A DNA stretch of 43,571 bases. Origin: a virus. The DNA is taken from IMG/VR virus record IMGVR_UViG_3300024496_000051, positions 1-43,571 of that record. One strand, given 5' to 3'. A program made the position numbers and the translations under genes. The first letter of the stretch is position 1; every line of letters begins with the position of its first letter. This document shows, one piece after another, positions 26,127-39,646 of this stretch. A model generated the notes under the pieces. That model was not told the DNA's origin, did not search any database, and saw only the letters and a program-made list of their open reading frames with translations.

Positions 26127-26143
26127 TCCAGGAAAACATTAAA

Positions 26144-26165
26144 AAGCCCACTAAAGAGTGGGCTT
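26144..26165 (-). terminator. Intrinsic terminator after pqqA
   Basis: AAGCCCACT CTTT AGTGGGCTT followed by TTT on the minus strand, just after the pqqA stop. It makes pqqA a separate one-gene transcript. Confidence 0.75.
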
Positions 26166-26173
26166 GTATTAAA

Positions 26174-26245
26174 TTAACGGTTCATTACATACATTGTAAC
26201 TTCAAAACCGTAGCGCATTTCAACTGCTTCTGGTTTAGTCCACAT
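26174..26245 (-). CDS. pqqA: PqqA-like pyrroloquinoline quinone precursor peptide
   Basis: A 23-residue peptide beginning MWTKPEAVEMRYGFEV and ending TMYVMNR. PQQ is built from one Glu and one Tyr of PqqA, in the motif E-V-T-x-Y; here it is EVTMY. The MWTKP start and the NR end also match proteobacterial PqqA. AAAGGAG is well placed before the ATG and a terminator follows the stop, so the gene is expressed by itself. No pqqB-E genes are in the window, so the peptide would feed host PQQ enzymes. Short length is normal for this family; the match covers nearly every position. Confidence 0.82.
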   Translation of the reverse strand: MWTKPEAVEMRYGFEVTMYVMNR

Positions 26246-26345
26246 AATGTTTCTCCTTTATAAAAACATACTGCATTAGTATGTATCGTTAGTATAAGAC
26301 AAAAACACCACAAAAACCATACGTAAAATCATTAAAATGATATTG

Positions 26346-26353
26346 CATAAATA
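26346..26353 (+). promoter_or_regulatory. Late promoter motif for the riboswitch-terC transcript
   Basis: CATAAATA on the plus strand. Transcription five to seven bases later would begin right at the riboswitch P1 stem (GTGTGTGGGGAG), which supports this being the true start. Confidence 0.5.
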
Positions 26354-26355
26354 CG

Positions 26356-26472
26356 TGTGTGGGGAGTAGTCCGCTCTTTTTAAGAGTTCTATACATCGTC
26401 ATTTCGGTTTTACAACCCGGTGCATAGAGAGAATGGGTCTCGGACAAGACCATAATATCGAGTATATTATGG
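26356..26472 (+). promoter_or_regulatory. yybP-ykoY manganese riboswitch upstream of terC
   Basis: The conserved parts are in order: GGGGAGTAG (26361), a CTCTT/AAGAG hairpin, ATCGTCATTTCGG, CCGGTGCATAG closing the P3 stem (CTATaCA with TGcATAG), a GAGA/TCTC hairpin, and CAAGACC (26445-26451). P1 pairs TGTGG with CCATA. An 8-bp hairpin (CATAATAT/ATATTATG, 26451-26471) competes with the P1 3' strand. ACTC (about 26510) can also pair with the GAGT of the ribosome site, so control is probably at translation. The class senses Mn2+ and usually switches on Mn exporters. Confidence 0.85.
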
Positions 26473-26529
26473 ATCTAAACATCTTCTCTTATTGTATTTC
26501 CATAACATACTCTTTTAAGGAGTTGTAAA

Positions 26530-27219
26530 ATGGAATTATTTACATTACAAGCCCTATGGGCATTTCTCGCTATCATTTTGATAGACATTGTATTAGCCGG
26601 TGATAACGCTCTTGTTATTGGGATGGCGGCTAACAAATTACCAGACCACTTACGCAAGAAGGCAATCTTCTGGGGTACTTTTGGTGCTATTGCTATACGT
26701 TTTGTATCAGTGGCGGCATTAACCTACTTGCTGATGATCCCAGGCTTACGTGCTATTGGTGCTGCCGCACTGATATGGATTGGTTGGAAGTTGGTGTTCA
26801 ATCACGACGAACACAACATCGAAGCCAAGGACACCTTCTGGGGTGCAATTGGTACTATCGTAGTCGCTGATGCTGTTATGGGCATAGATAATGCCTTAGG
26901 CATTGCCGCAGCCGCTAATGGTAGTTTTGTTTTAGTCGCCGCTGGATTGTTGATCAGTGTGCCAATTATCCTGTTTGGTGCTACTATGGTCAGCAAGATA
27001 CTACAACGTTGGCCCGACACAGTATTTGCAGGTTCGTTTGTATTGTTTGCTGTGGCAATGCTAATGCTAATGAAAGAACCATTGATGGCTAGCTGGTGGG
27101 CAGGGTTAGAACCTATTGTGGCTAAACCTTTACCTTGGTTGGCTGCATTTGTTATCACTGCTGTTCAGTATAACAAGGCTAGATTACATTTGCACAAAAA
27201 GTATTTGTTCAAATCATAA
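26530..27219 (+). CDS. TerC-family integral membrane protein, probable Mn2+ exporter
   Basis: 229 residues with about seven membrane helices. The family motifs LAGDNALVIGMAA (about 22-34) and MGIDNALGIAAAA (about 117-129) carry the paired acidic/Asn residues thought to bind the metal. TerC relatives (YjbE, YkoY, Alx) export manganese, and the Mn riboswitch in the leader supports this substrate. Only a few genes in the window read rightwards, and this one is isolated between two terminators. Export of Mn could limit mismetallation of iron enzymes such as NrdB; this is inference. AAGGAG lies seven bases before the ATG. Confidence 0.93.
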   Translation: MELFTLQALWAFLAIILIDIVLAGDNALVIGMAANKLPDHLRKKAIFWGTFGAIAIRFVSVAALTYLLMIPGLRAIGAAALIWIGWKLVFNHDEHNIEAKDTFWGAIGTIVVADAVMGIDNALGIAAAANGSFVLVAAGLLISVPIILFGATMVSKILQRWPDTVFAGSFVLFAVAMLMLMKEPLMASWWAGLEPIVAKPLPWLAAFVITAVQYNKARLHLHKKYLFKS

Positions 27220-27244
27220 AAAAGCCCCGGAAGGGGCTTTTTTA
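27218..27244. terminator. Bidirectional intrinsic terminator after terC
   Basis: AAAAAAGCCCC GGAA GGGGCTTTTTT: a GC stem with A and T tracts on both sides. It ends terC and also leftward transcription through the ahpD remnant. Confidence 0.85.
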
Positions 27245-27257
27245 TTACAGTAAAATT

Positions 27258-27374
27258 TTAACTGTTTAAAACTTTGGCAACCGAGTTCATTACTGCGGCA
27301 ATACGTCCAATGTCACGAAGCTGTTCTACAGTGTAGCCTTCCTTCTTGAGTGTGTCGTAGTGTGCTTTTACGCA
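27258..27374 (-). pseudogene. Displaced 3' fragment of ahpD
   Basis: The reading frame gives CVKAHYDTLKKEGYTVEQLR and continues to VAKVLNS-stop. This matches the last 38 residues of the intact AhpD at 28319, with only a few changes in protein but many synonymous changes in DNA. It has no start. It begins at the second Cys of the CxxC active site, exactly where homing elements tend to insert. Between it and the intact gene lie an HNH endonuclease gene and a 77-aa gene. Confidence 0.85.
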
Positions 27375-27376
27375 GG

Positions 27377-27610
27377 TTAATCTTTATCTTTCAATCTTTC
27401 CCACGAGGCATTAGCAGTATCTTGATTTTTCTTAGCATACTTAGGATCAGTGTCTGCTTGCTTAGAAGTCACTCTATCTACTGCTCGTTTATGAACCTTT
27501 GCCAACTGTTTTTGACCTTTGTTAGTATCGCCGTATTCTTCTAAAGAGCCTTCCGCCACACCTTGCTGGGCGGTTTCTATTAAGTTAATGTAATCTCTAA
27601 GTGTTTTCAT
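27377..27610 (-). CDS. Small protein with capsid-targeting-like N-terminus
   Basis: 77 residues. The N-terminus MKTLRDYINLIETAQ recalls T4 internal-protein leader peptides (MKTYQEFIAEA), with an L-x-E site (LIE) for prohead protease. The rest is polar and basic. ATAAATA ends seven bases before the ATG and overlaps the HNH stop, and there is no ribosome site, so it is probably a late, near-leaderless gene. It sits between the HNH gene and the ahpD remnant, so it may have travelled with that insertion. Confidence 0.6.
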   Translation of the reverse strand: MKTLRDYINLIETAQQGVAEGSLEEYGDTNKGQKQLAKVHKRAVDRVTSKQADTDPKYAKKNQDTANASWERLKDKD

Positions 27611-27617
27611 AATGTAG

Positions 27618-27623
27618 TATTTA
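27618..27623 (-). promoter_or_regulatory. Late promoter motif fused to the HNH stop codon
   Basis: The minus strand reads GGAATAAATACTACATTATG; TAA is the HNH stop and seven bases separate TAAATA from ATG 27610. Confidence 0.5.
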
Positions 27624-28307
27624 TTCCTTGTTCTTACAGTTATCGCCGTGCCAACGATTAAACATTCCGGAACTAACCGTTTTGCTACAATGCGGGCAGA
27701 CTTTTTTGATTTGGCTTGGATGTGTTCCGTTAGCCAGTTGATTCTTTACAGATTTGCCGCCCAAAAAGTTATGGGTTCCTTCCGCTACTCGTTTCTCATT
27801 AGTTTGGCGAGAAACTGCTCCGCCCAAAAACGGATGTGTTCCGTTCTTGACTTTTTCTAACTCTTTTTTACGGGCCCAATCTTTATCCAAAAATGTATGG
27901 TTGCCTTCGGCTATTCGCTTTAAGTTTCTTTTACTTGCCTTTTCACTATCTTGCCAGTGATGATTGCCTGCTTCGACTAATCTGTCTTGTGCTTGCTTTT
28001 GTATCTTGCCACCAAGAAAGTTATGGGTTCCATTCTCAACTGCTTTGAGTGCTCCTAATCTTGATAGATTAGACTTCTCTTCTGGTGTAATATCTAGTGC
28101 TCCGGAAATCAACAAACAAGCATACCAGTCTCCTTGACTGTAGTGTATGTCGTAGTGTTCCTGGATAGTGACTGCTTTAAGATTTAGAGGATTATTATTA
28201 GAGTGATCCCCATCGATGTGATGGATTTCAAAAGATCGTCCATCAGCATCAACGGGGATTTCACCGTAGTGCTGTTTGTATATTTTTCTATAAGATCGGT
28301 CTCTCAT
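27621..28307 (-). CDS. HNH homing endonuclease with tandem DNA-binding repeats
   Basis: 228 residues from ATG 28307 (TTG 28322 is the alternative). The HNH nuclease comes first: FEIHHIDGDHSNNNPLNLKA, then EHYDIHY. Next are about six short repeats of the type NGTHNFLGG / EGNHTFLDK / NGTHPFLGG spaced about 20-24 residues, which probably read DNA along the groove. A C-terminal zinc finger (CPHCSK, then HGDNC) ends it. It follows ahpD directly, and a displaced ahpD tail lies beyond it, so ahpD is the likely homing target. Confidence 0.88.
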   Translation of the reverse strand: MRDRSYRKIYKQHYGEIPVDADGRSFEIHHIDGDHSNNNPLNLKAVTIQEHYDIHYSQGDWYACLLISGALDITPEEKSNLSRLGALKAVENGTHNFLGGKIQKQAQDRLVEAGNHHWQDSEKASKRNLKRIAEGNHTFLDKDWARKKELEKVKNGTHPFLGGAVSRQTNEKRVAEGTHNFLGGKSVKNQLANGTHPSQIKKVCPHCSKTVSSGMFNRWHGDNCKNKE

Positions 28308-28318
28308 AGAAATATTTA

Positions 28319-28825
28319 TCAACTATTCAGCACCTTTGCTACACTATTCATTACTGCCGCTATTCTGCCGATGTCTCTCAACTGCTCAACAGTATAACCC
28401 ATAGTTTTCAAACCATCGTAATGGGCTTTTACGCAAAACTCGCATTTGCCCACAATACTAGCAGCCAAACTAAATGCTTCAAAGTTTGCCTTGGTAGTTC
28501 CACCGTGGCTAGCAATCGCATTCATACGTAACTGAGCTGGCAATCCCTTTAGCTGTTCATCATCTGCCATTTCAACATATGGATACCATACATTGTTCTG
28601 TGCCATAATGCTTGCGGCTGTCATTGCTGCTTCGCCGTGTACTGGAGCATCTGCTAATAGAATACTTAGAACCTTGCCGTTGCCTGTTGCGGCTAATGCA
28701 GCTACAGCACAACCTATTGCAATGTCCGGATCTAATGTACTGCGAAGTAGAACAGCATCTAGGTTTAGTTTTGTATCTTTAGCGTACTCTGGAAGTGCGC
28801 CTTTAATTGTTTCGTTGAAGTTCAT
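28319..28825 (-). CDS. ahpD: AhpD-like alkylhydroperoxidase (CxxC)
   Basis: 168 residues. AhpD proteins are thiol enzymes that reduce AhpC or hydroperoxides. The active site GKCEFCVKAHYD has Cys128, Cys131 and His135 in the family arrangement ExxC-x2-C-x3-H, though a Lys stands before the first Cys. It overlaps the SGNH gene start, and lies two genes downstream of ahpC, which suggests it is the electron donor for the phage peroxiredoxin. The C-terminal 38 codons are duplicated at 27258-27374. Confidence 0.9.
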   Translation of the reverse strand: MNFNETIKGALPEYAKDTKLNLDAVLLRSTLDPDIAIGCAVAALAATGNGKVLSILLADAPVHGEAAMTAASIMAQNNVWYPYVEMADDEQLKGLPAQLRMNAIASHGGTTKANFEAFSLAASIVGKCEFCVKAHYDGLKTMGYTVEQLRDIGRIAAVMNSVAKVLNS

Positions 28826-29232
28826 TTTGTTTTCTCCGCTAGTTCTTTATAACCTGCCCAACTAGGATGTATTGCATCAGCTTGCAATCGTTCTGTTTTA
28901 ATAATTGTATCTCCCCAATTACGAGCAATAATTTCTACAATCTCGTTTACATCAGGTTTACAGAATTTATTATTACAGGGAGGAAGTATCCAATATACAC
29001 GATCTGCTTGTACTCGTTCTCTCATTGATTCTAATTCTTTAAAGGTATGCACACCTTTATGATCATTAGTACCAAGACTGATAATAACAGATTTTGCTGC
29101 TAGATTCTTATCCGCAAATTTACGATTCCATTGCCAAGTGTTATATCCGCCAATGCTGTAACTAATACATTCTTTACGAACATTGGCGGTACCCACCGCA
29201 ATACTATCTCCTAGTATTAGGCAGTCTAACAT
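28822..29232 (-). CDS. SGNH/GDSL-type hydrolase
   Basis: 136 residues from ATG 29232, sharing one base with the ahpC stop. The blocks are present: LILGDSIAVGTAN (nucleophile Ser in GDS), SIGGYNTW (Gly block), SLGTND (Asn block) and DAIHPSWAGY (Asp/His pair). These are esterases acting on acyl or acetyl groups, often on sugars or peptidoglycan. No signal peptide. The position between ahpC and ahpD does not reveal the substrate; deacetylation of surface sugars is one possibility. Confidence 0.85.
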   Translation of the reverse strand: MLDCLILGDSIAVGTANVRKECISYSIGGYNTWQWNRKFADKNLAAKSVIISLGTNDHKGVHTFKELESMRERVQADRVYWILPPCNNKFCKPDVNEIVEIIARNWGDTIIKTERLQADAIHPSWAGYKELAEKTK

Positions 29233-29765
29233 TACAATGTCTCGCCGCCAACTGTACGGTTGCAAGCGCACAATTCACCTGTTTGCAATGCATCCAATAC
29301 ACGAAGTGTTTCTTCTGGGCTACGGCCGACGTTCAAGTTGTTGACAGTAACGTGTTGGATAACGTTGTCTGGATCAACGATGAATGTTGCACGAAGTGCG
29401 GCACCTGCTGGAGCATAGAATACACCTAGTTGTTCAATCAAGCTCAACTCGCCACGCTGTGTGTCTGCAAACTGAGTGTGTGTGATCTTAGCAAGATCGG
29501 GGTGAGCTTTTTGCCAAGCAAGTTTACAGAACTCGTTGTCTGTTGAACCTGTTAGTAGAACAGCATCACGATCCTTGAAATCACCTGCCAACTTATCATA
29601 GGCAACGATTTCAGTTGGACATACGAATGTAAAGTCCTTTGGATAGTAAACGATTACTTTCCACTTGCCAGCGAAGCTTTCGTCTGTAATAGTAAAGAAA
29701 TCATCCTTACCTGGATTAACACCTGTTACGGCAAACTTTTCAATTTTATCACCAACTGTTTTCAT
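29232..29765 (-). CDS. ahpC: AhpC-type 2-Cys peroxiredoxin
   Basis: 177 residues. It reduces H2O2, alkyl peroxides and peroxynitrite. Peroxidatic Cys49 lies in DFTFVCPTE with the conserved Thr, and the C-terminal GELCACNRT gives Cys166/Cys168, an arrangement like actinobacterial AhpC that is reduced by AhpD. ahpD lies two genes downstream, which fits. AAGGAG precedes the ATG, and an AGGAC/GTCCT hairpin is in the leader. It would protect the phage's iron enzymes or the dying cell from peroxide. Confidence 0.95.
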   Translation of the reverse strand: MKTVGDKIEKFAVTGVNPGKDDFFTITDESFAGKWKVIVYYPKDFTFVCPTEIVAYDKLAGDFKDRDAVLLTGSTDNEFCKLAWQKAHPDLAKITHTQFADTQRGELSLIEQLGVFYAPAGAALRATFIVDPDNVIQHVTVNNLNVGRSPEETLRVLDALQTGELCACNRTVGGETL

Positions 29766-29923
29766 TTCATTCTCCTTGTGTGTGTTGAAAACTATATAGG
29801 ACCCTTTGTCCTGTACAACTATTATACATTTAATTATCCTATTAATCTAGCATTTTAATAGGTTTTTTTACAATATTTTTTAATAACGTTAATAGGAAAA
29901 ATCAATAACGTTTTGAAAAATAG

Positions 29924-29943
29924 AAAGGACCCTAAGGTCCTTT
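29924..29943 (-). terminator. Intrinsic terminator after the outer-membrane protein gene
   Basis: AAAGGACC TTAG GGTCCTTT followed by CTATTTTTC on the minus strand. Confidence 0.75.
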
Positions 29944-29963
29944 CAATAAGGCTCTAATTGAAA

Positions 29964-30515
29964 TTAGAAACGATGGATCAAACCAACTTTGGTGATGTTC
30001 TGATCACTGTCACCACGCTGACGATCATAGCCAATATAAATGGTGTCATTCTTAGTTACATCGTAACCAAGTTTGGCACGCCAAGTACGGGTTGTATCGT
30101 TTTGACTGTTGCTAAACGCATCCTGGAAGCGATAGCCTAGGCTAACACCAACAGCACCTTGTTTAACAGCAACACCTGGTTCAACAGAATAGTAGCTGAA
30201 TCCACTTGCGCCGCTAACTTGCTTTTCGCCGACTGCTACACGAGCATATGGTGATACAAGGCCAACACTAGTGGATGCTGTTAGACCAGCTTCATAACGT
30301 GTTGCTAAAGCATCTGTACCATCTGTTCGATAGTTTTTAACAACAATATCACCTGCAAAGTTGTTGTTAATAGATTCTTTAATGCCTAACTCGTAGACAC
30401 GTTGACTTGCTGTGCCGTTAGTACCATTTGCATCCTGACTTTCTAAACGAACTTCGGCTGCTGATACCATACCTGCTACTGTTGCCAAAACTGCGGCAAT
30501 AACTAACTTCTTCAT
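29964..30515 (-). CDS. Small outer-membrane beta-barrel protein
   Basis: 183 residues. The signal peptide ends at VSAA. The mature part alternates polar and hydrophobic residues in about eight strands (for example RVYELGIKESI, SPYARVAVGEKQV, AVGVSLGYRF, DTIYIGYDRQRG), and the final residue is Phe (LIHRF), the usual BAM targeting signal. Size fits an eight-stranded OmpA/OmpX-like barrel. Phage outer-membrane proteins can block receptors or other phages. It has its own promoter with an operator-like palindrome, and a terminator. Confidence 0.85.
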   Translation of the reverse strand: MKKLVIAAVLATVAGMVSAAEVRLESQDANGTNGTASQRVYELGIKESINNNFAGDIVVKNYRTDGTDALATRYEAGLTASTSVGLVSPYARVAVGEKQVSGASGFSYYSVEPGVAVKQGAVGVSLGYRFQDAFSNSQNDTTRTWRAKLGYDVTKNDTIYIGYDRQRGDSDQNITKVGLIHRF

Positions 30516-30585
30516 AAAATCTCCTTATGTGTAATCGTGTGTCTAACTTTATGTAGATAATGTGAATAACACTACGATGAAGTTT

Positions 30586-30605
30586 AATCAGTGTTAACAC
30601 TGATT
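30586..30605. promoter_or_regulatory. 20-bp perfect palindrome at the outer-membrane gene start site
   Basis: AATCAGTGTTAACACTGATT is identical on both strands. It covers the predicted transcription start of the promoter next to it, so it is either a repressor operator or a 5' protective hairpin of the mRNA. Confidence 0.6.
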
Positions 30606-30609
30606 GTTA

Positions 30610-30638
30610 ACTATATATGCTTTTAGATCAGTTGTCAA
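30610..30638 (-). promoter_or_regulatory. Sigma70 promoter of the outer-membrane protein gene
   Basis: TTGACA (30638-30633), 17 bases, TATAGT (30615-30610). It abuts the tmRNA terminator on the right and the palindrome on the left. Confidence 0.65.
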
Positions 30639-30640
30639 GA

Positions 30641-30664
30641 AAAAAGGCTACCGAAGTAGCCTTT
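30641..30664 (-). terminator. tmRNA terminator
   Basis: AAAGGCTAC TTCG GTAGCC TTTTTT on the minus strand, directly after the coding piece of the tmRNA. Confidence 0.85.
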
Positions 30665-30980
30665 ACTATTTTCTGTTTCGAGGTATAGCTACCCAAAGCC
30701 TTAAGCGGCTAATGCGAAACGTGTATCGTTTGCGTTTACTTTTTTTGCTTCTTCGGCCGAGTTCCCCCAACCCTACGGGTTTCACATTCCCGAGCTGTCC
30801 ACTTCGTTACTCATCACCCTGTCGAAACCATGACTGGCCCATTAGGGAGAACACTAGTATGACGTCTGCTACGCCGCGGCCGAAGCCCTTAGTAACGGTT
30901 CTCTAATGCTCTCTCTGGTGGACCAGGCGGGAGTCGAACCCGCGTCCAGAATACCTTTCTCTCTGCTTCATACAGCAATA
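30665..30980 (-). ncRNA. ssrA: Two-piece (permuted) tmRNA
   Basis: Reading leftward, the acceptor piece comes first: the T-arm GACGCGGGTTCGACTCCCGC and the 3' end CTGGTCC-A-CCA (CCA at 30918-30916). An excised loop of about 75 bases follows, then the coding piece starts at 30840 with GGGCCAG, which pairs with CTGGTCC as the acceptor stem. ATGGTTTCGACAGG is the usual 5' sequence. The tag frame (30748-30701) encodes AKKVNANDTRFALAA then TAA. tmRNA rescues stalled ribosomes and tags products for ClpXP-type proteases. The ALAA end suits bacterial proteases. Exact 5' end of the acceptor piece is estimated. Confidence 0.93.
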
Positions 30981-30995
30981 ACTTATATTTAACAC

Positions 30996-31520
30996 TCATT
31001 CTTCATAAATGTCAATATCTTCATCTTCCCAAATTGTACCTTTTTTATCATAGGCTTGATAATAAGCTTCGTTTGGTTTGAGTATGCGCCAACCCTGATA
31101 CTTGAGTCCTGCTAAGGTAGCTTCTTCTTTCTTTAGTAGATCGCAGATAATAAACGATGAGCCGCAGGCTCCTTCTACATTCTTAAATGGACTGTGTTTA
31201 AACTCGTTATTACTCAGAGCCTTGTGCATAGCACCACCCCAGTTAAAAATGATGCGAGTGATACCCAACTTTTGGTTGCGTAAACGAATCTTATCTATAA
31301 GTGAAAGAGTTGATAATGTAGCTTCGTTCTGTTCATTGATTGTTAACAAACATTCTTTGAACTTAAGGCTACCTTTAGTATGGCTGTTGTCAGGAGTTTC
31401 TTTGGTACTCCAAGCCATTTGTGCGTCAACGTGATTGACATAAAATGTTTCACCGTGTGTTTTAAGGACCCACATCGGAACGGTCTCATCTTCTAAGTGT
31501 TTTTTATTAAAATGGAACAC
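30996..31520 (-). CDS. Hypothetical protein (174 aa)
   Basis: It starts with GTG 31520 after AAGGA; the ATG at codon 16 (MWVLKTHGETFYVNHVDAQ) is an alternative. The protein is mixed alpha/beta, ends in an acidic tail (DEDIDIYEE), and has no membrane segment, signal or known motif. It lies upstream of the tmRNA and may share a transcript with it. Similar proteins occur, as far as I remember, in marine T4-like phages, but I cannot name a function. Confidence 0.65.
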   Translation of the reverse strand: MFHFNKKHLEDETVPMWVLKTHGETFYVNHVDAQMAWSTKETPDNSHTKGSLKFKECLLTINEQNEATLSTLSLIDKIRLRNQKLGITRIIFNWGGAMHKALSNNEFKHSPFKNVEGACGSSFIICDLLKKEEATLAGLKYQGWRILKPNEAYYQAYDKKGTIWEDEDIDIYEE

Positions 31521-31566
31521 TACATCCTTACAAGCATATTCAATCTATTGCATTTTATTTTCCTTT

Positions 31567-31600
31567 AAAAATGATAGTTTTTTTGTGTCAGGAAACTATC
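31567..31600 (-). terminator. Terminator-like hairpin between the zinc-ribbon and hypothetical genes
   Basis: GATAGTTT and AAACTATC form a stem followed by ATTTTT on the minus strand. Upstream (31623-31667) a GCCGGA/TCCGGC hairpin has a loop (CCTGT) that can pair with ACAGG downstream, a possible pseudoknot. Confidence 0.5.
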
Positions 31601-31691
31601 AAACCCCGTGAGCGCAGCCCATCCTGTTTTCGCGTCAGCGGAGCCGGAGTATGGTTACAGGTCCGGCAAACTTATTTACACTTTACAATTT

Positions 31692-32459
31692 TTATGCAAA
31701 TATTTCAAGAGCTGTACCGCATTCTTGGCAAAATTTGCTGGTAGCTTTGTTCTGCTTACCGCAGGTCACACATTTTGGTTTGTGTTTGACTGTTACTGCC
31801 TGTTTAACAGCTTCTCCACCCAAAATCTTAAACACCATAGAATGTTTAGTACTTTCTAATGCACCTACATAAGTAGTGGTAAACTTTTGCTCACTCTTGC
31901 TACCCGGAACGGTAATACCAACATCGTTAACTTGATTAACAAATGCCTGAGCAGATGCTGTACTATAACTATCCATAGTTGCAGAACAGGTTACTGATCC
32001 TGCTGGTGCAGCCCAATCTGCTGTAGATCCACGCAGAATTCCGCCTTGTGGGTAGATTTTATTATCGCCGTAATAGGCAGTATTAGTTGTCCAGGTAATT
32101 GGACGAACAGGCTGTTCGTATTGGAATTCGATTCTTACCAATCCGTCTTCAAGTTTGGCACCTCGGTGTTGCTCCACTGAGCCTGTTCTTTCGATGAACT
32201 TGAACTTGTTGCCTTCTGTGAGATTGCCGTTTTTGACTGATCGCTCGAGATCGACTTCTTGTCCAGCGTTAATAACAATCCCACCAGGAACCATATCGTC
32301 ACCGTCAATATATACGTTAACGACAGCACGGGTCGTATGTAGATTCTTAAGTAGTATTGAATATTCTGATCCGAACGGAACATAAACTGTGTCCTTGAAT
32401 TCTCTTAGGACTTTGCCTTTTACTTTAATGGCGGCGGCCATTTTACTTTCGTACATCAT
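31692..32459 (-). CDS. Late phage protein with C-terminal zinc ribbon
   Basis: 255 residues from ATG 32459 after AAGGAG (upstream in-frame starts lack a ribosome site). Most of the protein is beta-rich with no known motif. The C-terminus has CVTCGKQNKATSKFCQECG (two CxxC knuckles), a zinc ribbon. A full TATAAATA late promoter lies about 75 bases upstream, followed by a leader with an ACACTCT/AGAGTGT hairpin, so it is probably abundant late. Likely a virion or assembly protein; this is inference from the promoter. Confidence 0.65.
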   Translation of the reverse strand: MMYESKMAAAIKVKGKVLREFKDTVYVPFGSEYSILLKNLHTTRAVVNVYIDGDDMVPGGIVINAGQEVDLERSVKNGNLTEGNKFKFIERTGSVEQHRGAKLEDGLVRIEFQYEQPVRPITWTTNTAYYGDNKIYPQGGILRGSTADWAAPAGSVTCSATMDSYSTASAQAFVNQVNDVGITVPGSKSEQKFTTTYVGALESTKHSMVFKILGGEAVKQAVTVKHKPKCVTCGKQNKATSKFCQECGTALEIFA

Positions 32460-32535
32460 GATTTCTCCTTTTACGGTACACACTCTAAGTACCTAACATT
32501 TAAAGAGTGTTGGTTGTGGGACCTTCCCACGCATC

Positions 32536-32543
32536 TATTTATA
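32536..32543 (-). promoter_or_regulatory. Consensus T4 late promoter TATAAATA fused to a stop codon
   Basis: The minus strand reads CTATAAATAGATG: the full T4 late consensus. Its TAA is the stop of the 78-aa gene upstream. It drives the zinc-ribbon gene. Confidence 0.65.
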
Positions 32544-32775
32544 GATACTGTTCTATAAATGGATCTTCTTCTGGGAAATAATGCACATCGTACATTATTC
32601 CGCCAATGTTGTATTCTGCACACCAGCTATGTTGATTATTAGTCTCTCTAACTGGTTCTGTCATTTGCAGCATTAACCAAACTCGATCGTGTTCAGCACC
32701 TTCTAGTCTACGTTTTGGTGGACCCATAATCTTACGGATAAATGCTTCTGCTTCTTCTTTGGTTTTAAACTGCAT
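32539..32775 (-). CDS. Small hypothetical protein (78 aa)
   Basis: From ATG 32775 (MQFKTKEEAEAFIRKIMG) after AAGGAT; an earlier in-frame start would cross the tRNA gene and is rejected. The sequence suggests a small alpha/beta fold with EEAEAFIRK helix and aromatic strands (YDVHYFPEEDPF). Function unknown. Co-transcription with the tRNA upstream is likely. Confidence 0.65.
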   Translation of the reverse strand: MQFKTKEEAEAFIRKIMGPPKRRLEGAEHDRVWLMLQMTEPVRETNNQHSWCAEYNIGGIMYDVHYFPEEDPFIEQYL

Positions 32776-32785
32776 ATAAATCCTT

Positions 32786-32861
32786 TGGTGCGCTAGGTGG
32801 GAATCGAACCCACGACACAAGAGGTTTAGAAGCTCCGGCTCTGCCACTAAGCTACTAGCGC
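32786..32861 (-). tRNA. tRNA, anticodon probably CUA (possible amber suppressor)
   Basis: 76 bases including an encoded CCA. Acceptor GCGCTAG/CTAGCGC, U8-A9, D-arm GCTT..GAGC with GG in the loop, and T-arm GTGGG-TTCGATT-CCCAC are all standard. The best anticodon loop is TTCTAAA: U33, CTA at 34-36, A37. The anticodon stem pairs four of five, with a C-C mismatch next to the loop (31-39). Reading TCT (Arg) instead gives a much worse stem. The fold makes the tRNA certain and the anticodon tentative. Confidence 0.8.
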
Positions 32862-32881
32862 ATACGTTTATTATGCTGCCA

Positions 32882-33184
32882 TTAAGCAGTTAGGTCAACA
32901 GTTTCTTCTTCTTTTTGGCTAAGTTTATTTGGACGTAATGGGTCAAGCCAAGTGTCCGGGATGTATGCTTTGGGCGTATCGCCTAGCATATTTTGGAGTC
33001 CGTGGTCGGTACTAATCCACCAATAATGATCCGTAATTTGTGCCTTACATACAATGCCGCGAAAATCAAATTCTTCACCTTGTTTAAAGTGTCCAATATA
33101 ATTTTCTACCAAAACAGTTTTGCCTATGTTCTGAGGACGTAGGCTCATAATGATTTTGGCAATGTCACCTTGTTCACACTTCAT
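32882..33184 (-). CDS. Hypothetical protein (100 aa)
   Basis: It begins MKCEQGDIAKIIMSLRPQNI and has a small beta-rich core (GEEFDFRGIVCKAQITDHYWWI), like an SH3-type barrel, and a polar acidic tail. The start overlaps the previous gene by 11 bases. No catalytic motif or signal. Typical of conserved small phage genes; function unknown. Confidence 0.7.
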   Translation of the reverse strand: MKCEQGDIAKIIMSLRPQNIGKTVLVENYIGHFKQGEEFDFRGIVCKAQITDHYWWISTDHGLQNMLGDTPKAYIPDTWLDPLRPNKLSQKEEETVDLTA

Positions 33185-33431
33185 TCTTTGTCATTCCTAT
33201 AATCTTTGTATGTAAGATCATATTCTCTGTTACTAATTTAGTAATAGTTGCTAATAGGATTAATCGATCAGCGTCAGTGATATCTTCTTTATCAAATTGT
33301 TCAAGGATACTTGCACCAATCATACGCATTGCTTCTGTTTTGCCTTGTTTGAATGCACCCCAATCAAATGGGTCGCCTTCTTCGTGAGCAAAGGCAATAT
33401 CAATTAATTCGTCTAAGGTTATTTTAGCCAT
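33174..33431 (-). CDS. Hypothetical helical protein (85 aa)
   Basis: It begins MAKITLDELIDIAFAHEEGD, is acidic and mostly helical, and overlaps both neighbours (13 bases with DUF454, 11 with the next gene). No known motif. The overlaps and codon use support a real gene in a coupled string. Confidence 0.7.
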   Translation of the reverse strand: MAKITLDELIDIAFAHEEGDPFDWGAFKQGKTEAMRMIGASILEQFDKEDITDADRLILLATITKLVTENMILHTKIIGMTKNEV

Positions 33432-33829
33432 CCTATCCTTTCATTGTTATCAACTCTTCTTTGGTGTTCTTCAACACTCCCAGGAAAACGCCAAGCCCAA
33501 ACGGCAACAAGGGCCATAAATATTGCAGTACTAATAATACCAATTGGTTTTACTCCGCCTGTAAACATTAAAATTAAACTTAGACTCATCATACCTAACA
33601 TAAAGAATTTCATCTTTGTAGGGAACACACGTTTCTGTCCCCAGTTAGTTAAGAATGGTCCAAAGATCTTGTGATTATATATCCATCGATGCATACGTTC
33701 ACTGCCTTTACTGAAACAGTAAGCAGCAAACACCACAAACGGTGAATACGGAATGCCAGGAGTTATTACTCCAATGTAGGCCATGCCAAGAGACAAGAAG
33801 CCTAGAGTTGTCCAAAGAAATTTTTTCAT
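33419..33829 (-). CDS. DUF454/YbaN-family inner-membrane protein
   Basis: 136 residues. LWTTLGFLSLGMAYIGVITPGIPYSPF and the following FCFSKGSERMHRW-type stretch (here YCFSKGSERMHRWIYNHKIFGP) are the YbaN/DUF454 signature, with three to four membrane helices. The function of the family is unknown. The stop lies inside the next gene. It is unusual in a phage and may affect the host inner membrane. Confidence 0.85.
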   Translation of the reverse strand: MKKFLWTTLGFLSLGMAYIGVITPGIPYSPFVVFAAYCFSKGSERMHRWIYNHKIFGPFLTNWGQKRVFPTKMKFFMLGMMSLSLILMFTGGVKPIGIISTAIFMALVAVWAWRFPGSVEEHQRRVDNNERIGWLK

Positions 33830-33830
33830 A

Positions 33831-34814
33831 TTAAGCAGCTACTACTTTGTTAGGTAATGCAGAGACAAGAATGTCCTGATGTAAGTTTGGAGTAAATTTT
33901 CCTCCAGCCGCTCCGTTTAATGTTGCAAGAGCGTTAATTGGTTTAGTTCCTCGAACAGTTTGTCCACCATAAGGTAAACCTGGTATGGCATAACTGATGT
34001 GTATCCACACAGTCTTTCCTGGTAGGTATTCTAATAATAACTGATCGTAAGGAATGTTTTTACTAATCCACACAGCAATATCAAAATAATCATGAGCAGG
34101 CACACCTCTAAACTGTATATCGCAGGCCTGGCCAGTACCGTGTTGTGCTTGATTCGAACCGTGTCTATAGCTGTTGGTTAAGAACGCATTTTTATAATGT
34201 GCTTTGATTGGTTCTACAACATTCAACGCAAGAGCAGCAAGATTGTTAACTATACTCTGAGGAGGTAATCCTTTAACGTTGTCCGCTAGTTGTTGAATAG
34301 TTCTTGGAAAAGTAACATTTTTAATCATTGCTCCAAGAGTAGTTCCTCCCGGAGTTAATACTGTTGAATAACTAATATCACCTGTTACTTCCGCAGATGG
34401 TTTTCCAGCCTTTGGTGCACCAGGTTTAACTCCTTCTCCCTTTGGTGTTGGAGTTGTTGTTATTTTAGCGTAGTCGTCTTTGGTAATACGACCTTCTGCT
34501 AGGAACCTATCAGCTTCCTTTTTACCAGATGTGTTATCTTCGTCGCCTTCTACGTTTTGCACAGCGGCAACTACAGTTACCTTAGGAACCGCTGGAGCGG
34601 AAAAGCTGCCGTCAGTTGCGTTTGCATTATACAATGCAATTGGTACACCGTTAGCAAACACATTGCTAGAATCGTATGTAGGTTCAACACGACCATTACC
34701 GTCAAACCGTAGCCCTGTAATTGCGGTATACGGATGGGTATGAGCAGTAGGACTATAAGGACCGCTAGGACTATTGCCTGCTGCTGGACTCGGATTAACT
34801 GTAGAATTCGCCAT
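33831..34814 (-). CDS. PAAR-like spike protein with M15 peptidase domain
   Basis: 327 residues. The N-terminal part (about 1-65) has SPTAHTHPYTAITG and SSNVFANGVPIALYN, like PAAR-repeat tips that cap tail spikes. A Pro/Lys linker follows. The C-terminal part (about 190-300) has SYRHGSNQAQHGTGQACDIQF and TVWIHISY, the H-D-H zinc site of M15/VanY-type D-Ala-D-Ala peptidases. This fits a tail tip that pierces the outer membrane and opens peptidoglycan at entry. TAAATA ends five bases before the ATG and there is no ribosome site. Confidence 0.78.
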   Translation of the reverse strand: MANSTVNPSPAAGNSPSGPYSPTAHTHPYTAITGLRFDGNGRVEPTYDSSNVFANGVPIALYNANATDGSFSAPAVPKVTVVAAVQNVEGDEDNTSGKKEADRFLAEGRITKDDYAKITTTPTPKGEGVKPGAPKAGKPSAEVTGDISYSTVLTPGGTTLGAMIKNVTFPRTIQQLADNVKGLPPQSIVNNLAALALNVVEPIKAHYKNAFLTNSYRHGSNQAQHGTGQACDIQFRGVPAHDYFDIAVWISKNIPYDQLLLEYLPGKTVWIHISYAIPGLPYGGQTVRGTKPINALATLNGAAGGKFTPNLHQDILVSALPNKVVAA

Positions 34815-34819
34815 ACTAC

Positions 34820-34825
34820 TATTTA
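34820..34825 (-). promoter_or_regulatory. Late promoter motif fused to a stop codon
   Basis: The minus strand reads GGCTTAAATAGTAGTATG. TAA is the stop of the 96-aa gene; TAAATA is five bases from ATG 34814, so the spike message would start at its AUG. Confidence 0.5.
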
Positions 34826-35113
34826 AGCCAATTTAATACCTGTAGTTCCTTGAATATAACTGTCAGAAAACTCTTTAAGAGTTGGCTCAAATACAACAAC
34901 TGTATTTTTAAAAATGCGTACATCTCTATCTGGATTGGCAGTAAACAAATATGGAGCCATTCCAAGACCTTGTTGCCCTGCTGTAAGGACCATAGGTCTA
35001 TTTAATTTAATATAAAGAGCACCGTCCTCAACTAACTTTCCAAGTATTTCCTCACCACTTGTAAGTTTAAGTGTTACAACATCACCTTCTGCTACACCTT
35101 TTTCAATTAACAT
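34823..35113 (-). CDS. Sm-fold-like small phage protein
   Basis: 96 residues. GDVVTLKLTSGEEILGKLVEDG followed by LYIKLNRPMVL resembles the first strands of Sm/LSm-like barrels (Sm1 motif), and the tail is less conserved. RNA binding is possible but not shown. It overlaps glutaredoxin by 11 bases, and its stop is part of a late promoter. Confidence 0.6.
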   Translation of the reverse strand: MLIEKGVAEGDVVTLKLTSGEEILGKLVEDGALYIKLNRPMVLTAGQQGLGMAPYLFTANPDRDVRIFKNTVVVFEPTLKEFSDSYIQGTTGIKLA

Positions 35114-35333
35114 TTGCTAACCTCGCTTTTAATTCAGTAAATCCGCCTACTAATTCTTCGTCTAAAAAGATCTGTGGAACTGTACGTGCGGTAGGCACAG
35201 CTTCTAATAAATCCTCTTTTGAATACCCGTCTCCAATTTTGCGTTCTTCAAATGCAATTCCCTTTTGTGTGAGCAATGCTTTGGCCTGATCGCAATAGGG
35301 GCAATGATACTTACTCCATACAATCGCTTTCAT
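35103..35333 (-). CDS. Glutaredoxin
   Basis: 76 residues, thioredoxin fold, with the CPYC site in WSKYHCPYCDQAKALL (Cys12, Cys15), the cis-Pro region (TVPQIFLDEELVGG) and the GSH-binding GG. It uses glutathione to reduce disulfides; as the last enzyme of the nrdA-iscU-iscA-nrdB string it probably reduces the C-terminal Cys pair of NrdA. Complete and normal length for a short Grx. Confidence 0.93.
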   Translation of the reverse strand: MKAIVWSKYHCPYCDQAKALLTQKGIAFEERKIGDGYSKEDLLEAVPTARTVPQIFLDEELVGGFTELKARLANVN

Positions 35334-35345
35334 TTCTTGTTTCCT

Positions 35346-35513
35346 TTAATTTGAGTATATTACAGCACCCGTCTTGTCTGTGACTCTAACTAGGAGCATA
35401 CCTTTATTTTTATATTGAAGGGCAGCACTTATAGCAGCTTGTTCGCTGCCATAGGTTCCTATAGTTGTCCAAGACTCGTAAGGTGATTTTCTTTTGAATT
35501 GAGCTTTATACAT
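35346..35513 (-). CDS. Small hypothetical protein (55 aa)
   Basis: Translated by hand: MYKAQFKRKSPYESWTTIGT, then SEQAAISAALQYKNKG and a final LLVRVTDKTGAVIYSN. It looks like a small beta-alpha-beta fold. It fits exactly between nrdB and glutaredoxin, six bases downstream of the nrdB stop and 12 bases before the grx start. Function unknown, but its place in the RNR string suggests co-expression. Confidence 0.65.
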   Translation of the reverse strand: MYKAQFKRKSPYESWTTIGTYGSEQAAISAALQYKNKGMLLVRVTDKTGAVIYSN

Positions 35514-35519
35514 AGTTTA

Positions 35520-36629
35520 TTATATAGCTGGTAGAGCGTCGTAGTCGAGATTATCTGACATAACACCAATAACATAACTTGTAGATTCTGTTTCTTGTAA
35601 TGCACTCTGTTTCTTACTAGTATCAGTGTGCTTGTTAAACCAAGGAATAGGAGTAGTCTTTGGATGTGGATTCCAATACTTAATACCAATATCCTTTAGA
35701 GAACCGTGAGCTGTGAAGTCAACAAACTCTTTTAGAATATTAGCATTAAGACCAATCACTGGGCCTAGTTTAAACAGATAGTCGGCCCAGGCTTTTTCTT
35801 CTGCAATAACATCTTTGTAAATTTGAATTACTTCATCTTGACACTCTTGTGCTGCCTTGGCAAATCGTGGATCTTCTTTGACTACCTGATTAATAATATA
35901 AGCAGTCCATCCTTTGTGTAGCAATTCGTCTTGTAGAATTAGGCTAATAATGTTGCCATTACCGATAAAGATCTTGTTCTCAACCATTGCTAGACTTGTA
36001 GCAAATGATGTCATAAAGCGGAAAGCTTCTAATGCGTAACTTGCGTGTAAGGCTAGATAGATTGCTTTGATATGTCCTTCTTCGGGAGAGTTGTTAGGAT
36101 CACTATCAATCTCTTTAATGCAGTTAAACTTATGCAAGTCATCATAATACTTGCCAATACTACTGGCCATATCTACAATTTCTTTGGTGTCATGGATAGT
36201 GTTGAATACTTCCTTAGGCACGTTATAGATGTTACGGATAATGTGACTGTAACTGCGTGAATGAATATTAGTTTCAAAGAAACTCCAGTTATAGACCAAT
36301 GCTTCTAATTCTGGAAGGCTTACGACCGGAGTAAAGATTTGACTTGGGCCGCGACCTTGCAGACTGTCAAGAGCAGTTTGCCTAAGCAGGTTACTAGTGA
36401 AGATATGTTTAACCGCATCTGATGCTTCCTTAAAATCATTTGCATCTTTGGTTAGACTAACTTCTTCTGGGACCCAAAAGAATCCACGGGCTGTCTTTTC
36501 AAAGTCTACAATTTTATTATATTTTACTTCTTCAAATCGTTGAATAGTAACAGGACCTGCCGGATCCAAGAACATCTTACGATTAAGATAGTCTGTCTTT
36601 GTTGTTAAATTATATTGTTGTTTACTCAT
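35520..36629 (-). CDS. nrdB: Ribonucleotide reductase class I beta subunit
   Basis: 369 residues (E. coli 376). It holds the iron centre and tyrosyl radical. Asp88 (LDSLQGR), Glu119, His123, radical Tyr127 (HSRSY), the Glu in LEAFRFM, and Glu/His in DELLH match E. coli D84, E115, H118, Y122, E204, E238 and H241. Between Glu119 and His123 there is one more residue (ETNIH, E-x3-H) than in E. coli (E-x2-H). The C-terminus ends SDNLDYDALPAI, an NrdA-docking tail. Last large gene of the nrd operon. Confidence 0.96.
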   Translation of the reverse strand: MSKQQYNLTTKTDYLNRKMFLDPAGPVTIQRFEEVKYNKIVDFEKTARGFFWVPEEVSLTKDANDFKEASDAVKHIFTSNLLRQTALDSLQGRGPSQIFTPVVSLPELEALVYNWSFFETNIHSRSYSHIIRNIYNVPKEVFNTIHDTKEIVDMASSIGKYYDDLHKFNCIKEIDSDPNNSPEEGHIKAIYLALHASYALEAFRFMTSFATSLAMVENKIFIGNGNIISLILQDELLHKGWTAYIINQVVKEDPRFAKAAQECQDEVIQIYKDVIAEEKAWADYLFKLGPVIGLNANILKEFVDFTAHGSLKDIGIKYWNPHPKTTPIPWFNKHTDTSKKQSALQETESTSYVIGVMSDNLDYDALPAI

Positions 36630-36631
36630 TT

Positions 36632-36958
36632 TTATACTCTAAAACTTTCTCCGCAACCACAACGGTCACGTTCATTTGGGTTAACAAAATCAAACCCTTC
36701 ATTTAATCCATTTTTTACCCAGTCTATAGTTAATCCGTCTAGATATACTAAAGACTTTGCATCTACTAATATTACAAAATCATCTGTAGCAAAATTTGTA
36801 ACTCCAACTTCTGCTTCATACTCGTCTACATATTCTAACACATATGCCAAACCACTGCAACCAGTAGTTTTAACTGCTAGTCGAATTCCTACACCCTTGC
36901 CTCTATTCTTAAGCAAGTGCTTGATCTTTGTTTTGGCTTTGTCTGTTACGGTAATCAT
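36632..36958 (-). CDS. iscA: IscA/ErpA-type A-type iron-sulfur carrier
   Basis: 108 residues. The three cysteines are in place: TTGCSGLAY (Cys34) and the C-terminal RCGCGESF (Cys100, Cys102). It holds iron or a 2Fe-2S/4Fe-4S cluster and passes it on. It overlaps the end of iscU by about 50 bases and lies two bases after nrdB is reached. Location between iscU and nrdB suggests it supplies iron to the NrdB diiron centre or Fe-S to a phage enzyme; this is inference. Confidence 0.95.
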
Positions 36959-37316
36959 TTACGGCCGCTTTGATCGCATCTTCTGCAAGTATCGAACAAT
37001 GAATCTTAACAGGGGGGAGGGCAAGCTCAGTAGCAATTTCGCTATTCTTAATCTGTTGCGCTTCGTCAAGCGTTCTTCCTTTGAGCCATTCAGTAACGAG
37101 CGAACTCGACGCAATCGCGCTTCCACAACCATACGTTTTAAATTTGGCATCTTGAATAATTCCTGTGGTTTCGTCTACTTTAATTTGTAGCTTCATTACG
37201 TCACCACAAGCAGGTGCACCGACCATACCTGTGCCTACTCCTTGTTCATCTTTAGAAAAGCTACCTACATTTCGAGGATTCTCATAATGGTCGATTACTT
37301 TGTCTGAGTAACTCAT
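36909..37316 (-). CDS. iscU: IscU-type Fe-S cluster scaffold
   Basis: 135 residues. [27 protein letters not shown] (Cys37, Asp39), [11 protein letters not shown] (Cys64) and KIHCSILA (Cys107) give the full scaffold site on which clusters are built. The LPPVK chaperone motif (about 100-104) is also present, so HscA-type or the phage DnaK chaperone could act on it. No cysteine desulfurase (IscS) is in the window, so sulfur must come from the host. The start overlaps the nrdA stop by four bases. Confidence 0.95.
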
Positions 37317-39646
37317 AGTTTACAGGCCTCACAATCTTCTTCAATACTTGTTTCAGCTTCTCTTTCATAGAAACCGTTATAGTGTACTTCGGGAGTCTTG
37401 TCCTCGTGTTTGGCGCCTTGCTTATTGATTAGACTATAGTAGAAAGTCTTAATACCCCACAACTGTGCCTGCATCAAGTTCTTAGCAATTAGTGTAGTTG
37501 GAACTTTGCGTTCTGGGAAATGTGCTGGATTGTAGAATGTGTTTGTTGAAATACTTTGATCAACATACGCTGCTAAAACAGCCGCAGTCTTTAGATAACC
37601 TTGGCAGTCTGTTTGATCCCACATCAACTGATACTTATTCTTAAGTCTATTATATTCTGGAACCACTTGTGTAAACGAGCCAGCTTTGGATTCTTTAGTT
37701 GAAATTAAACTCATCGGCATTTCAATACCGTTGGTTGAATTAATAACAACTGAACTAGACTCTACAGGTGCTACAGCCATTAAGGTAGCGTTTCGAACAC
37801 CGTGTGTTTTCATTTCTTTTCTAAGAGTTTCCCAATCGAGTTCTGGAGTAAAGTCAGTAAGTTCGTTAACACCTTGGGCTCTTCTTTCCCAAGGGAAGAT
37901 CCCTTGACCGTATCTTGTTCGGTCGCTGTCTTTACACTTGCCTCTTTCCTTGGCAAGTTCAACTGTTGCTTCTGTAAGGTAAAAGGCCTGATGCTCCATC
38001 CAAACTTTAACTTCCGCCAGTGCGTCTTTGTCGCCATATTTCATTCCTCTTTTAGCGTGCCAATAGGCAAGGTTAGTAATACCAATACCTAGTGGTTGAA
38101 TTTCGTCGTTGCTTAGTTTAGATTGAATACTTAGGAAATCTTGATAATCTAAAATGTTGCAAAGACTACGTTGTAAGATTCGACACGCTCTACGCATATC
38201 TTCTGGGTTTCGGAACGCACCCCAGTTAATGGATCCCAGTGTACATAACGCTATGCGTCCCTCCTCGTCGTCTAATCTCTTAAATGGACGGGTTGGTAAT
38301 AAGATCTCACAGCACAGGTTACTTTGATAGATGGTATGATATTCAGGATCAAAAGGTCCTTGATTCATAACATTATCAATAAACACCAAATAGATGCGAC
38401 CTGTATCTGTACGCTCCTTAAGAATGCCGGACTTGAATACTTCTTCAGCTGACATTGTTTTTTTACGTAAACCTTTTTGCTTTTCGTATTTTACATATAG
38501 TTCTTCAAATCGTTCTGTGTTGCTGTAAAATGCTTCATATAGATCTGGCACTTCATTTGGATCAAAGAAAGTTATATTTTCTTTGTTCTTAAATCTTCTC
38601 CAGAAGAATGACGACAACACGACCCCGTAGTCCATGTGTCTAACTCGTGTCTCTTCTGTACCTTGGTTGTTCTTGAGAACAATGAGATCATCAAACTGAT
38701 GATGCCAAATGGGATAAAAGACAGTAGCAGATGCATTACGAATTCCACCTTGTGAACAACTCCTTAAATCACCGAACCATTTTTTCAGGAATGGTATCAT
38801 ACCTGTGTGCATAATTTCGCCACCTCGAATAGGCGAACCTAATGGACGTAGTCGTCCAATCTCTAAACCGATGCCAGCACGTTTGCTGGCATACTTGGCC
38901 ATCATCTCCCCAGAAGCAAATATGCTATCCAGATCGTCGTCACTGCGGATAAGCACACAACTAGAAAACTGCTTAGTTGGAGTGCCAAGGCCAGCCAACA
39001 CAGGTGTAGCAAGAGTAAACAAACCATCTGAAGCCGCGTTGTAATACTCTTTGATGTAACGCATACGGGCTGCATTAGGTTCTTCTTTATGGAAGACAGT
39101 CGCGGCAGCAACCATATAACGAACTTGTGGTGTTTCATAGATCTCCTTAGTAGCTCGGTTACGCACGAGATACTTTTCGATCAATTGCTCAATAGCTGCG
39201 TAACTGTATTCTTCATCTTTAGAATGATCTAGCATATCATTCATTTTATTCCAGTCATCTTCTGAATACCATTCAAGAAGTTCTGGAGTATATAATCCAA
39301 CAGAAACATTTTTCTTAACAATGTCGTAAAGGTGGGGAGGCTCGTAGTCTCCGTAAACATCCTTTCTCAACATCGAAAGACGTTGTTTGCCTGCTACGTA
39401 CTGATAGTTAGTGTGACCTACATCTGGATTATGTTCAATATCAATTAGATCAACTATTGCTCTAAGTGTAATTCCATCAATCTCTTCTGTAGTAATACCG
39501 TCATAGAAATGTGGTTGGGCTTTAATTTCTATCATTGACTGGCTAACGTCTGCAATGCCTTTACAAACTTTAGCTACTTGGGCTTGCCATTTTTCAACTG
39601 CTAATGGTTCTTTGTTTCCGCTGCGTTTAATAACTGTGATGCTCAT
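37313..39646 (-). CDS. nrdA: Ribonucleotide reductase class I alpha subunit
   Basis: 777 residues (E. coli 761). It reduces NDPs to dNDPs. The N-terminal ATP cone (VIKRSGNKEPLAVEKWQAQV), Cys in FSSCVLIRS, the active-site NLCCEILLPT and LCTLGSINWG, and the C-terminal shuttle Cys pair in EEDCEACKL are all present. A late-like TAATAAATA lies 37 bases upstream. It heads the string nrdA-iscU-iscA-nrdB-small ORF-grx. A complete phage RNR supplies dNTPs from host RNA breakdown, together with GuaC. Confidence 0.97.
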   Translation of the reverse strand: MSITVIKRSGNKEPLAVEKWQAQVAKVCKGIADVSQSMIEIKAQPHFYDGITTEEIDGITLRAIVDLIDIEHNPDVGHTNYQYVAGKQRLSMLRKDVYGDYEPPHLYDIVKKNVSVGLYTPELLEWYSEDDWNKMNDMLDHSKDEEYSYAAIEQLIEKYLVRNRATKEIYETPQVRYMVAAATVFHKEEPNAARMRYIKEYYNAASDGLFTLATPVLAGLGTPTKQFSSCVLIRSDDDLDSIFASGEMMAKYASKRAGIGLEIGRLRPLGSPIRGGEIMHTGMIPFLKKWFGDLRSCSQGGIRNASATVFYPIWHHQFDDLIVLKNNQGTEETRVRHMDYGVVLSSFFWRRFKNKENITFFDPNEVPDLYEAFYSNTERFEELYVKYEKQKGLRKKTMSAEEVFKSGILKERTDTGRIYLVFIDNVMNQGPFDPEYHTIYQSNLCCEILLPTRPFKRLDDEEGRIALCTLGSINWGAFRNPEDMRRACRILQRSLCNILDYQDFLSIQSKLSNDEIQPLGIGITNLAYWHAKRGMKYGDKDALAEVKVWMEHQAFYLTEATVELAKERGKCKDSDRTRYGQGIFPWERRAQGVNELTDFTPELDWETLRKEMKTHGVRNATLMAVAPVESSSVVINSTNGIEMPMSLISTKESKAGSFTQVVPEYNRLKNKYQLMWDQTDCQGYLKTAAVLAAYVDQSISTNTFYNPAHFPERKVPTTLIAKNLMQAQLWGIKTFYYSLINKQGAKHEDKTPEVHYNGFYEREAETSIEEDCEACKL

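Follow-up and report, generated by a model that had tools for sequence, protein, structure and literature searches.

The window, by which we mean the whole stretch of DNA analysed here, is a 43.6-kb virus record whose phage genes include ribonucleotide reductase subunits and an exonuclease. A megablast search with positions 24000-43571 returned no near DNA relative in the phage collection. The only RNA genes called by ARAGORN in the window are a tRNA with the anticodon CTA and a permuted tmRNA, there being no other tRNA gene, and an Rfam scan of the window found no riboswitch. The tRNA, the tmRNA and further genes considered below lie as follows:

13783-14082 (-), ClpS adaptor homologue (PF02617, E=3e-25)
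30610-31008 (-), permuted (two-piece) tmRNA with the tag ANDTRFALAA, by ARAGORN and Rfam (Rfam bounds 30641-31029)
30701-30733 (-), reading frame for the tmRNA tag, with TAA as its stop (ARAGORN offset 276-308; UAA at 30701 in the Rfam alignment)
31692-32483 (-), conserved 263-aa gene between tRNA and tmRNA with a C-terminal zinc ribbon (PF13240), the marker for related loci
32539-32787 (-), small ORF directly downstream of the tRNA (start inside 32539-32847), without Pfam match
32786-32861 (-), suppressor-type tRNA with the anticodon CUA (34-36), by ARAGORN, Rfam RF00005 and reading of the sequence
32882-33184 (-), 100-aa gene directly upstream of the tRNA, without Pfam match

ClpS is part of the protease machinery handling tagged proteins. 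Its gene shares the segment 13783-16532 (-) with a full-length Hsp70; counting the tmRNA, the window holds three genes for protein quality control. A curli-type module is located at 7666-9901 (-) with CsgG (8544-9401) and CsgF (9413-9901) identified by Pfam; the part at 7666-8490 has no Pfam match but is repeat-rich and curlin-like in look. At 2301-4346 (-) we noticed a protein with CHASE2 and adenylate/guanylate cyclase domains, an unusual signalling gene in a phage contig, and near it a FecR-domain protein (6568-7662).

The feature at 32786-32861 was confirmed as a genuine tRNA gene with a UAG-reading anticodon. ARAGORN calls CTA on the minus strand, and Infernal aligns 32789-32861 to the Rfam model RF00005 with 56.3 bits. 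Reading the sequence gives an acceptor stem GCGCTAG/CTAGCGC with G1-C72, followed by A73 and an encoded CCA, and an anticodon loop TTCTAAA on a 4-bp anticodon stem adjoining a C31.C39 mismatch. The first-pass annotation had proposed CUA as the best-folding anticodon, which all three lines of evidence bear out, and had named an Arg-TCT call as the result that would speak against it. No Arg-TCT was called, and we rejected both Arg-TCT and a shifted anticodon since no such register pairs. The label tRNA-Pyl is merely ARAGORN's name for CTA: tRNA-Pyl is defined by a 6-bp anticodon stem and a 3-base variable loop, whereas in the window tRNA the stem has 4 bp plus the mismatch, and the variable loop has about 5 bases.

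To place the tRNA we used the 263-aa marker protein, which led to 72 related loci picked independently of the tRNA. A CTA tRNA is present in 54 of them, a tmRNA in 25 and both in 23; because many stretches are short, a missing tRNA or tmRNA at a marker locus means little. The window tRNA is one member of a tRNA class conserved across a clade of large phages. We compared 30 distinct clade tRNAs, namely those of loci fetched by protein or by record plus those of the cultured Xanthomonas phage XacN1, a set that leaves out four tRNA loci (three distant records) with a CTA tRNA of another kind. All 30 carry G1-C72 and 28 carry A73. At the acceptor, T and inner anticodon positions 29-30 of the 30 have standard pairs, with two-sided changes at many of them, and pair 27-43 is standard in 21. 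Position 31-39 is unpaired (C.A, A.C or C.C) in 27 and standard in only 3; of the 414 further distinct tRNAs in these records, 16 lack a standard pair there. Since C.A, A.C or C.C occupies this position while neighbouring pairs covary, the mismatch looks selected. RAS14 is likewise unpaired at 31-39. The C-C mismatch, earlier taken as a reason to doubt the anticodon, therefore proves to be a conserved mark of the tRNA class. Because one pattern scan selected for C.C, wider counts of this mismatch run too high, and the restricted set of 30 was used instead. The open closing pair may reduce decoding efficiency; the class matches a working tRNA in its acceptor end, its CCA, its T arm and at A37 A38.

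We attempted to assign an amino acid to the class by nearest-tRNA comparison and with a classifier (87% cross-validated accuracy). Neither gave an assignment: the nearest tRNAs are a mixture of Leu, Thr and Lys, and the mean probability is at most 0.20 for any amino acid. The nearest tRNA to the XacN1 CUA tRNAs is a UCA tRNA with a paired 31-39 position (L168 515-591, in relative G006), which lies about 7 kb from the tmRNA of the same phage. For 35 of the 38 class tRNAs listed there is no other tRNA within 3 kb. A scan of a bacterial and archaeal genome collection, with a pattern covering only the C.A subtype with G30-C40, returned 6 stretches, in 2 of which ARAGORN called a CTA tRNA (L615, Virgisporangium; L616, a Flavobacteriaceae MAG) and in 4 none. 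On these few matches a bacterial origin was rejected, and the class appears phage-borne.

The tmRNA of the window, absent from the first-pass annotation, is of betaproteobacterial type, scoring 118.7 bits with RF01850 (beta_tmRNA) and 111.7 bits with RF04321 (tmRNA_permuted, cut-off 47). It is separated from the tRNA by 1778 bp on the same strand. A permuted tmRNA was detected in 22 of 28 large relatives, and for 17 of the 38 class tRNAs listed a tmRNA lies 245-3619 bp away within the stretch fetched. In the 11 large records with both genes the distance is below 3.3 kb in 7, 5.9 kb in one and 16-41 kb in three. The 7 close cases compare with 0.42 expected, giving an exact P of 2e-8 if the records were independent, but they are related. 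Another tRNA is present in the stretch fetched of 9 of these 11 records, and the tmRNA is nearer than it in 6 (not in G001, G002 and G005). The order of tRNA and tmRNA varies; the strand is identical wherever one stretch shows both, which adds little because whole regions run on one strand.

Among the matches listed, a permuted tmRNA over the cut-off occurs in 9 of 33 contigs with the C.A pattern versus 3 of 44 with the A.T pattern, and the link therefore seems mainly a property of this clade. A general link of any CTA tRNA with a permuted tmRNA was rejected on these counts. SmpB, the usual partner of tmRNA in bacteria, which a phage need not encode where its host supplies it, was detected in 3 of the 32 relatives and related phages. 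RF-1 domain proteins with open frames of 129-201 aa were seen in 5 of 28 relatives (L119-L123 in G001, G012, G006, G011 and G010); these short proteins are perhaps ArfB-like ribosome-rescue factors.

We also determined stop codon usage in the window and its relatives. With a simple codon-score gene caller, the 54 genes called in the window end in TAA (38) or TGA (16) and never in TAG. A length-only caller gives one TAG among 56 genes of at least 60 aa, an ORF with a TTG start at 36615-37190 that runs antisense to better genes. The earlier statement that about 58 genes end in TAA or TGA without a single TAG thus holds, as does the statement that no gene is interrupted by TAG, which is absent as an in-frame codon from the window genes. 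Stop counts were extended to 18 relatives, 11 with at least 80% of their length covered and 7 with less. In the 11 clade records with a class tRNA, window included, 62 of 1737 genes (3.6%) end in TAG, with a share per record of 0-7% and extremes of 0/140 (G015) and 10/152 (G016). The figure is 41 of 425 for three distant records in which position 31-39 of the CTA tRNA is normally paired, and 44 of 718 (6.1%) for five relatives without a CTA tRNA in the stretch fetched. TAG is the least used stop of the clade, its 3.6% contrasting with a share of 22-30% among off-frame stop triplets. The zero of the window is weak evidence, since the clade rate gives it a P of about 0.14, and is unsurprising given the range among clade records and the avoidance of TAG in other relatives as well. 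A strong TAG depletion caused by the tRNA was rejected, the difference between 3.6% and 6.1% being small and the records non-independent. TAG stops common elsewhere in the genome had been named as a finding that would count against the original idea; such stops do occur in the relatives, but they are uncommon there.

Several tests bear on whether TAG is read as a sense codon. Of the 103 TAG-ending genes in the CTA-positive records, 2.9% have an extension scoring above the coding threshold, as compared to 10% for TAA and 1.4% for TGA; we attribute the higher TAA score to following genes that happen to be in frame. The 6998 cross-record tblastn alignments of these records contain 16 TAA, 5 TGA and 5 TAG as internal stops, counted only with 20 residues aligned on each side, and most of them adjoin gaps or poorly matching ends. 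Orthologues of clade genes ending in TAG terminate 72 times in TAA, 25 times in TGA and 4 times in TAG, and neither a conserved TAG stop nor conserved programmed readthrough was found among the clade orthologues. On visual inspection, readthrough candidates turned out to be separate genes or diverging gene ends, the best of them (in G005) being a separate downstream gene with its own ATG. Two hallmarks of code 15 were looked for: in-frame TAG within conserved genes was not seen in the clade records examined, and a Gln-like acceptor end (weak 1-72 pair, G73) was not seen in the class tRNAs. Phage Gln tRNAs mostly combine U1 with G73. In this clade the genetic code is the standard one, and TAG is a genuine but seldom used stop. 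The suggestion of the first-pass annotation that the window represents a stage before or after recoding is accordingly not supported: the tRNA is kept in most marker loci of a divergent clade in which TAG remains a genuine stop of rare use, what follows TAG does not code, and the aligned homologues have no surplus of TAG.

A survey of IMG/VR indicates that CUA tRNAs of phages fall into two kinds. It excluded CTA tRNAs whose anticodon stem has under 4 pairs (205 to 174), and loci shorter than 4 kb were left out of the recoding count. Among the matches listed, recoded-looking contigs make up 16 of 90 with a paired and 1 of 54 with an unpaired 31-39 position (Fisher P 0.003); the classes were partly picked by their 31-39 letters, and the comparison is therefore confined to the share of recoded contigs inside each. 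The lone unpaired case (L443) is probably not recoded, because only 2 internal stops occur in 72 alignments with clade proteins. Lak-B5 has both kinds, a CUA tRNA of the U1, paired type and a UUA tRNA with an open 31-39 position:

L637 103-175, Lak-B5 UUA tRNA with G1-C72 and A31.C39

The coding density of Lak-B5 rises from 0.55 under code 11 to 0.84 under code 15, and its main stop is TAA (449 of 507). That a UUA member of the class exists despite this main stop argues against strong suppression and suggests weak or special decoding. In Lak megaphages TAG is reported to be read as Gln (PMC6784885), and a TAA-reading tRNA is reported in 51 of 51 Lak genomes, with TAA not recoded (PMC8346664). 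Lak megaphages encode a distant homologue of the marker protein (25% identity); a permuted tmRNA was looked for in Lak-B5 and not found.

As the best explanation we tentatively propose that the tRNA acts in trans as a suppressor on host TAG stops while the phage tmRNA rescues run-off ribosomes. Readthrough of host TAG stops had already been put forward as an alternative in the first-pass annotation and is still the best reading of the sequences. A host synthetase would charge the phage tRNA during infection, and UAG would then be read at some rate. Phage genes, nearly all of which end in TAA or TGA, would hardly be affected; host genes ending in TAG would yield proteins with C-terminal extensions, or their ribosomes would run off the message. 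The phage tmRNA together with host SmpB could then free the stalled ribosomes and tag the extended host proteins for degradation, the outcome being a cheap and selective disturbance of host proteins with ribosomes given back to phage translation. Suppressor tRNAs can carry ribosomes past stops, and SsrA/tmRNA has been reported to deal with the readthrough that they cause (Ueda 2002, cited in PMC3985003). A phage with rare TAG and both genes could turn such readthrough against its host. Against host suppression stand the three of 11 records with the tmRNA 16-41 kb away, the scarcity of SmpB among relatives, the small difference in TAG share between the clade and CTA-negative relatives, the UUA tRNA of Lak-B5 and the open closing pair. 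In a more far-reaching version, which is possible but rather doubtful, the class would be part of a takeover module of jumbo phages: a stop-reading tRNA whose open 31-39 position tunes decoding, coupled to a phage tmRNA, sparing the phage itself through rare TAG, forcing host readthrough and recycling stalled ribosomes and tagged proteins, with the stop that is read varying by lineage (UAG here, UAA in Lak).

The tRNA might instead be a weak suppressor, or none, in elongation, pairing with stops or binding a host factor for another purpose such as slowed termination or a decoy for a host tRNA-cutting defence, with the unpaired 31-39 position as part of its role. The conservation of this unpaired position within an otherwise kept stem, the failure of any canonical isotype to fit and the Lak-B5 UUA tRNA, found where TAA is reported as not recoded (PMC8346664, accessible text), would all agree with such a role. 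The class nevertheless keeps a stop anticodon (CUA, or UUA in Lak-B5) and has what a working tRNA needs in its acceptor end, its CCA, its T arm and at A37 A38, and we consider this alternative unlikely, if worth serious attention. Buffering or regulation of phage genes, by reading the few phage TAG stops or rescuing nonsense mutations, could draw on the existence of TAG stops in the clade; these stops are, however, not conserved, the extensions behind them are rarely coding, the best candidate is a separate gene, and the authors describing XacN1 identified no targets among its 18 amber stops (PMC5852040). Such a function seems improbable to us.

A stage before or after recoding of TAG is very improbable and, for the sequences examined, largely refuted. 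The distant marker homologue in Lak megaphages, where TAG is reported as Gln (PMC6784885), the gain in Lak-B5 coding density under code 15 and the scarcity of TAG in the clade would fit it. On the other side the tRNA is retained across a divergent clade without in-frame TAG, the only recoded-looking contig with an unpaired 31-39 position is doubtful, and the CUA tRNA of Lak-B5 itself is of the paired, U1 type. That a tRNA pseudogene or a misread anticodon such as Arg-TCT happens to lie in a segment lacking TAG stops would be compatible with the C31.C39 mismatch and with the chance level of the zero TAG count, but it is refuted by conservation: next to the score of 56.3 bits, the same CTA tRNA recurs near the same gene with covarying stems, leaving coincidence a negligible probability.

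Non-recoding phages have repeatedly been noted to carry suppressor tRNAs for which no target was given. To these cases the present analysis contributes four points: the open 31-39 position as a mark, conservation throughout the clade, a tmRNA in the neighbourhood and resemblance to the UUA tRNA of Lak. A literature search, covering mostly papers outside subscription, found none on a suppressor tRNA together with a tmRNA in jumbo phages and none on a phage suppressor tRNA with an anticodon-stem mismatch. Non-recoding suppressor tRNAs can be separated by structure from the recoding type and are tied to a ribosome-rescue RNA in the same genomes, and the 31-39 pair provides a simple sequence mark for sorting both kinds in metagenomes. 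If our preferred reading of host suppression is true, a virus would attack its host through stop codons while its own genes stay in the standard code. The cultured phage XacN1 is a system where the idea is testable: on this reading, host proteins of TAG genes would be extended and ANANTFDYALAA-tagged during XacN1 infection.

Among known systems, the code-15 phages (crAss-like and Lak) share with the window a phage-encoded CUA tRNA; there TAG is a sense codon, whereas the clade of the window has no excess of in-frame TAG and its tRNA has A73, G1-C72 and an open 31-39 position. The Lak-B5 UUA tRNA resembles the class in G1-C72, C2-G71, A73 and A31.C39 but reads UAA, probably also UAG, and occurs where TAG is recoded and served by a separate CUA tRNA. 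Zeta crAss-like phages, compared by description, are like the clade in their conserved CUA tRNA, rare TAG and lack of recoding, and their authors propose host weakening or counter-defence; they are gut phages of other hosts, and the accessible part of the source describes no tmRNA link (PMC12386605). The methylophage Melnitz and other aquatic phages encode a two-piece (permuted) tmRNA as the window does, and Melnitz is reported with curli genes similar to CsgG/CsgF of the window; its tmRNA is reported to be of alphaproteobacterial kinship and to stand under a glutamine riboswitch, whereas that of the window matches the betaproteobacterial model, and the text accessible for Melnitz mentions no suppressor tRNA (PMC9004378). 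A 2026 paper on 4-bp anticodon stems concerns an opened 27-43 end and leaves phages unmentioned in its accessible part (PMC13092985). For the jumbo phage RsoM2USA, compared by description, one CUA tRNA is reported (PMC8504454).

The closest counterpart is XacN1. Its homologue of the 263-aa marker is ORF366, which adjoins the tail sheath gene. In its sequence (AP018399.1, locus L262) we noticed at 6042-6461 and 7435-7848, near the CUA tRNAs, a permuted tmRNA (RF04321, 123 bits) and a GOLLD RNA (227 bits), neither of which is among the annotated features of that stretch. Xanthomonas tmRNA is one-piece, so the permuted tmRNA of XacN1 is not a recent host copy. Unlike the window, XacN1 has two copies of the CUA tRNA, which differ in their acceptor stems and lie in a terminal repeat that bears tRNA genes; one of the two has G73. 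Like the window, it combines a CUA tRNA of the same class (C31.A39) with the standard code and has a permuted tmRNA about 1 kb from its two CUA tRNAs.
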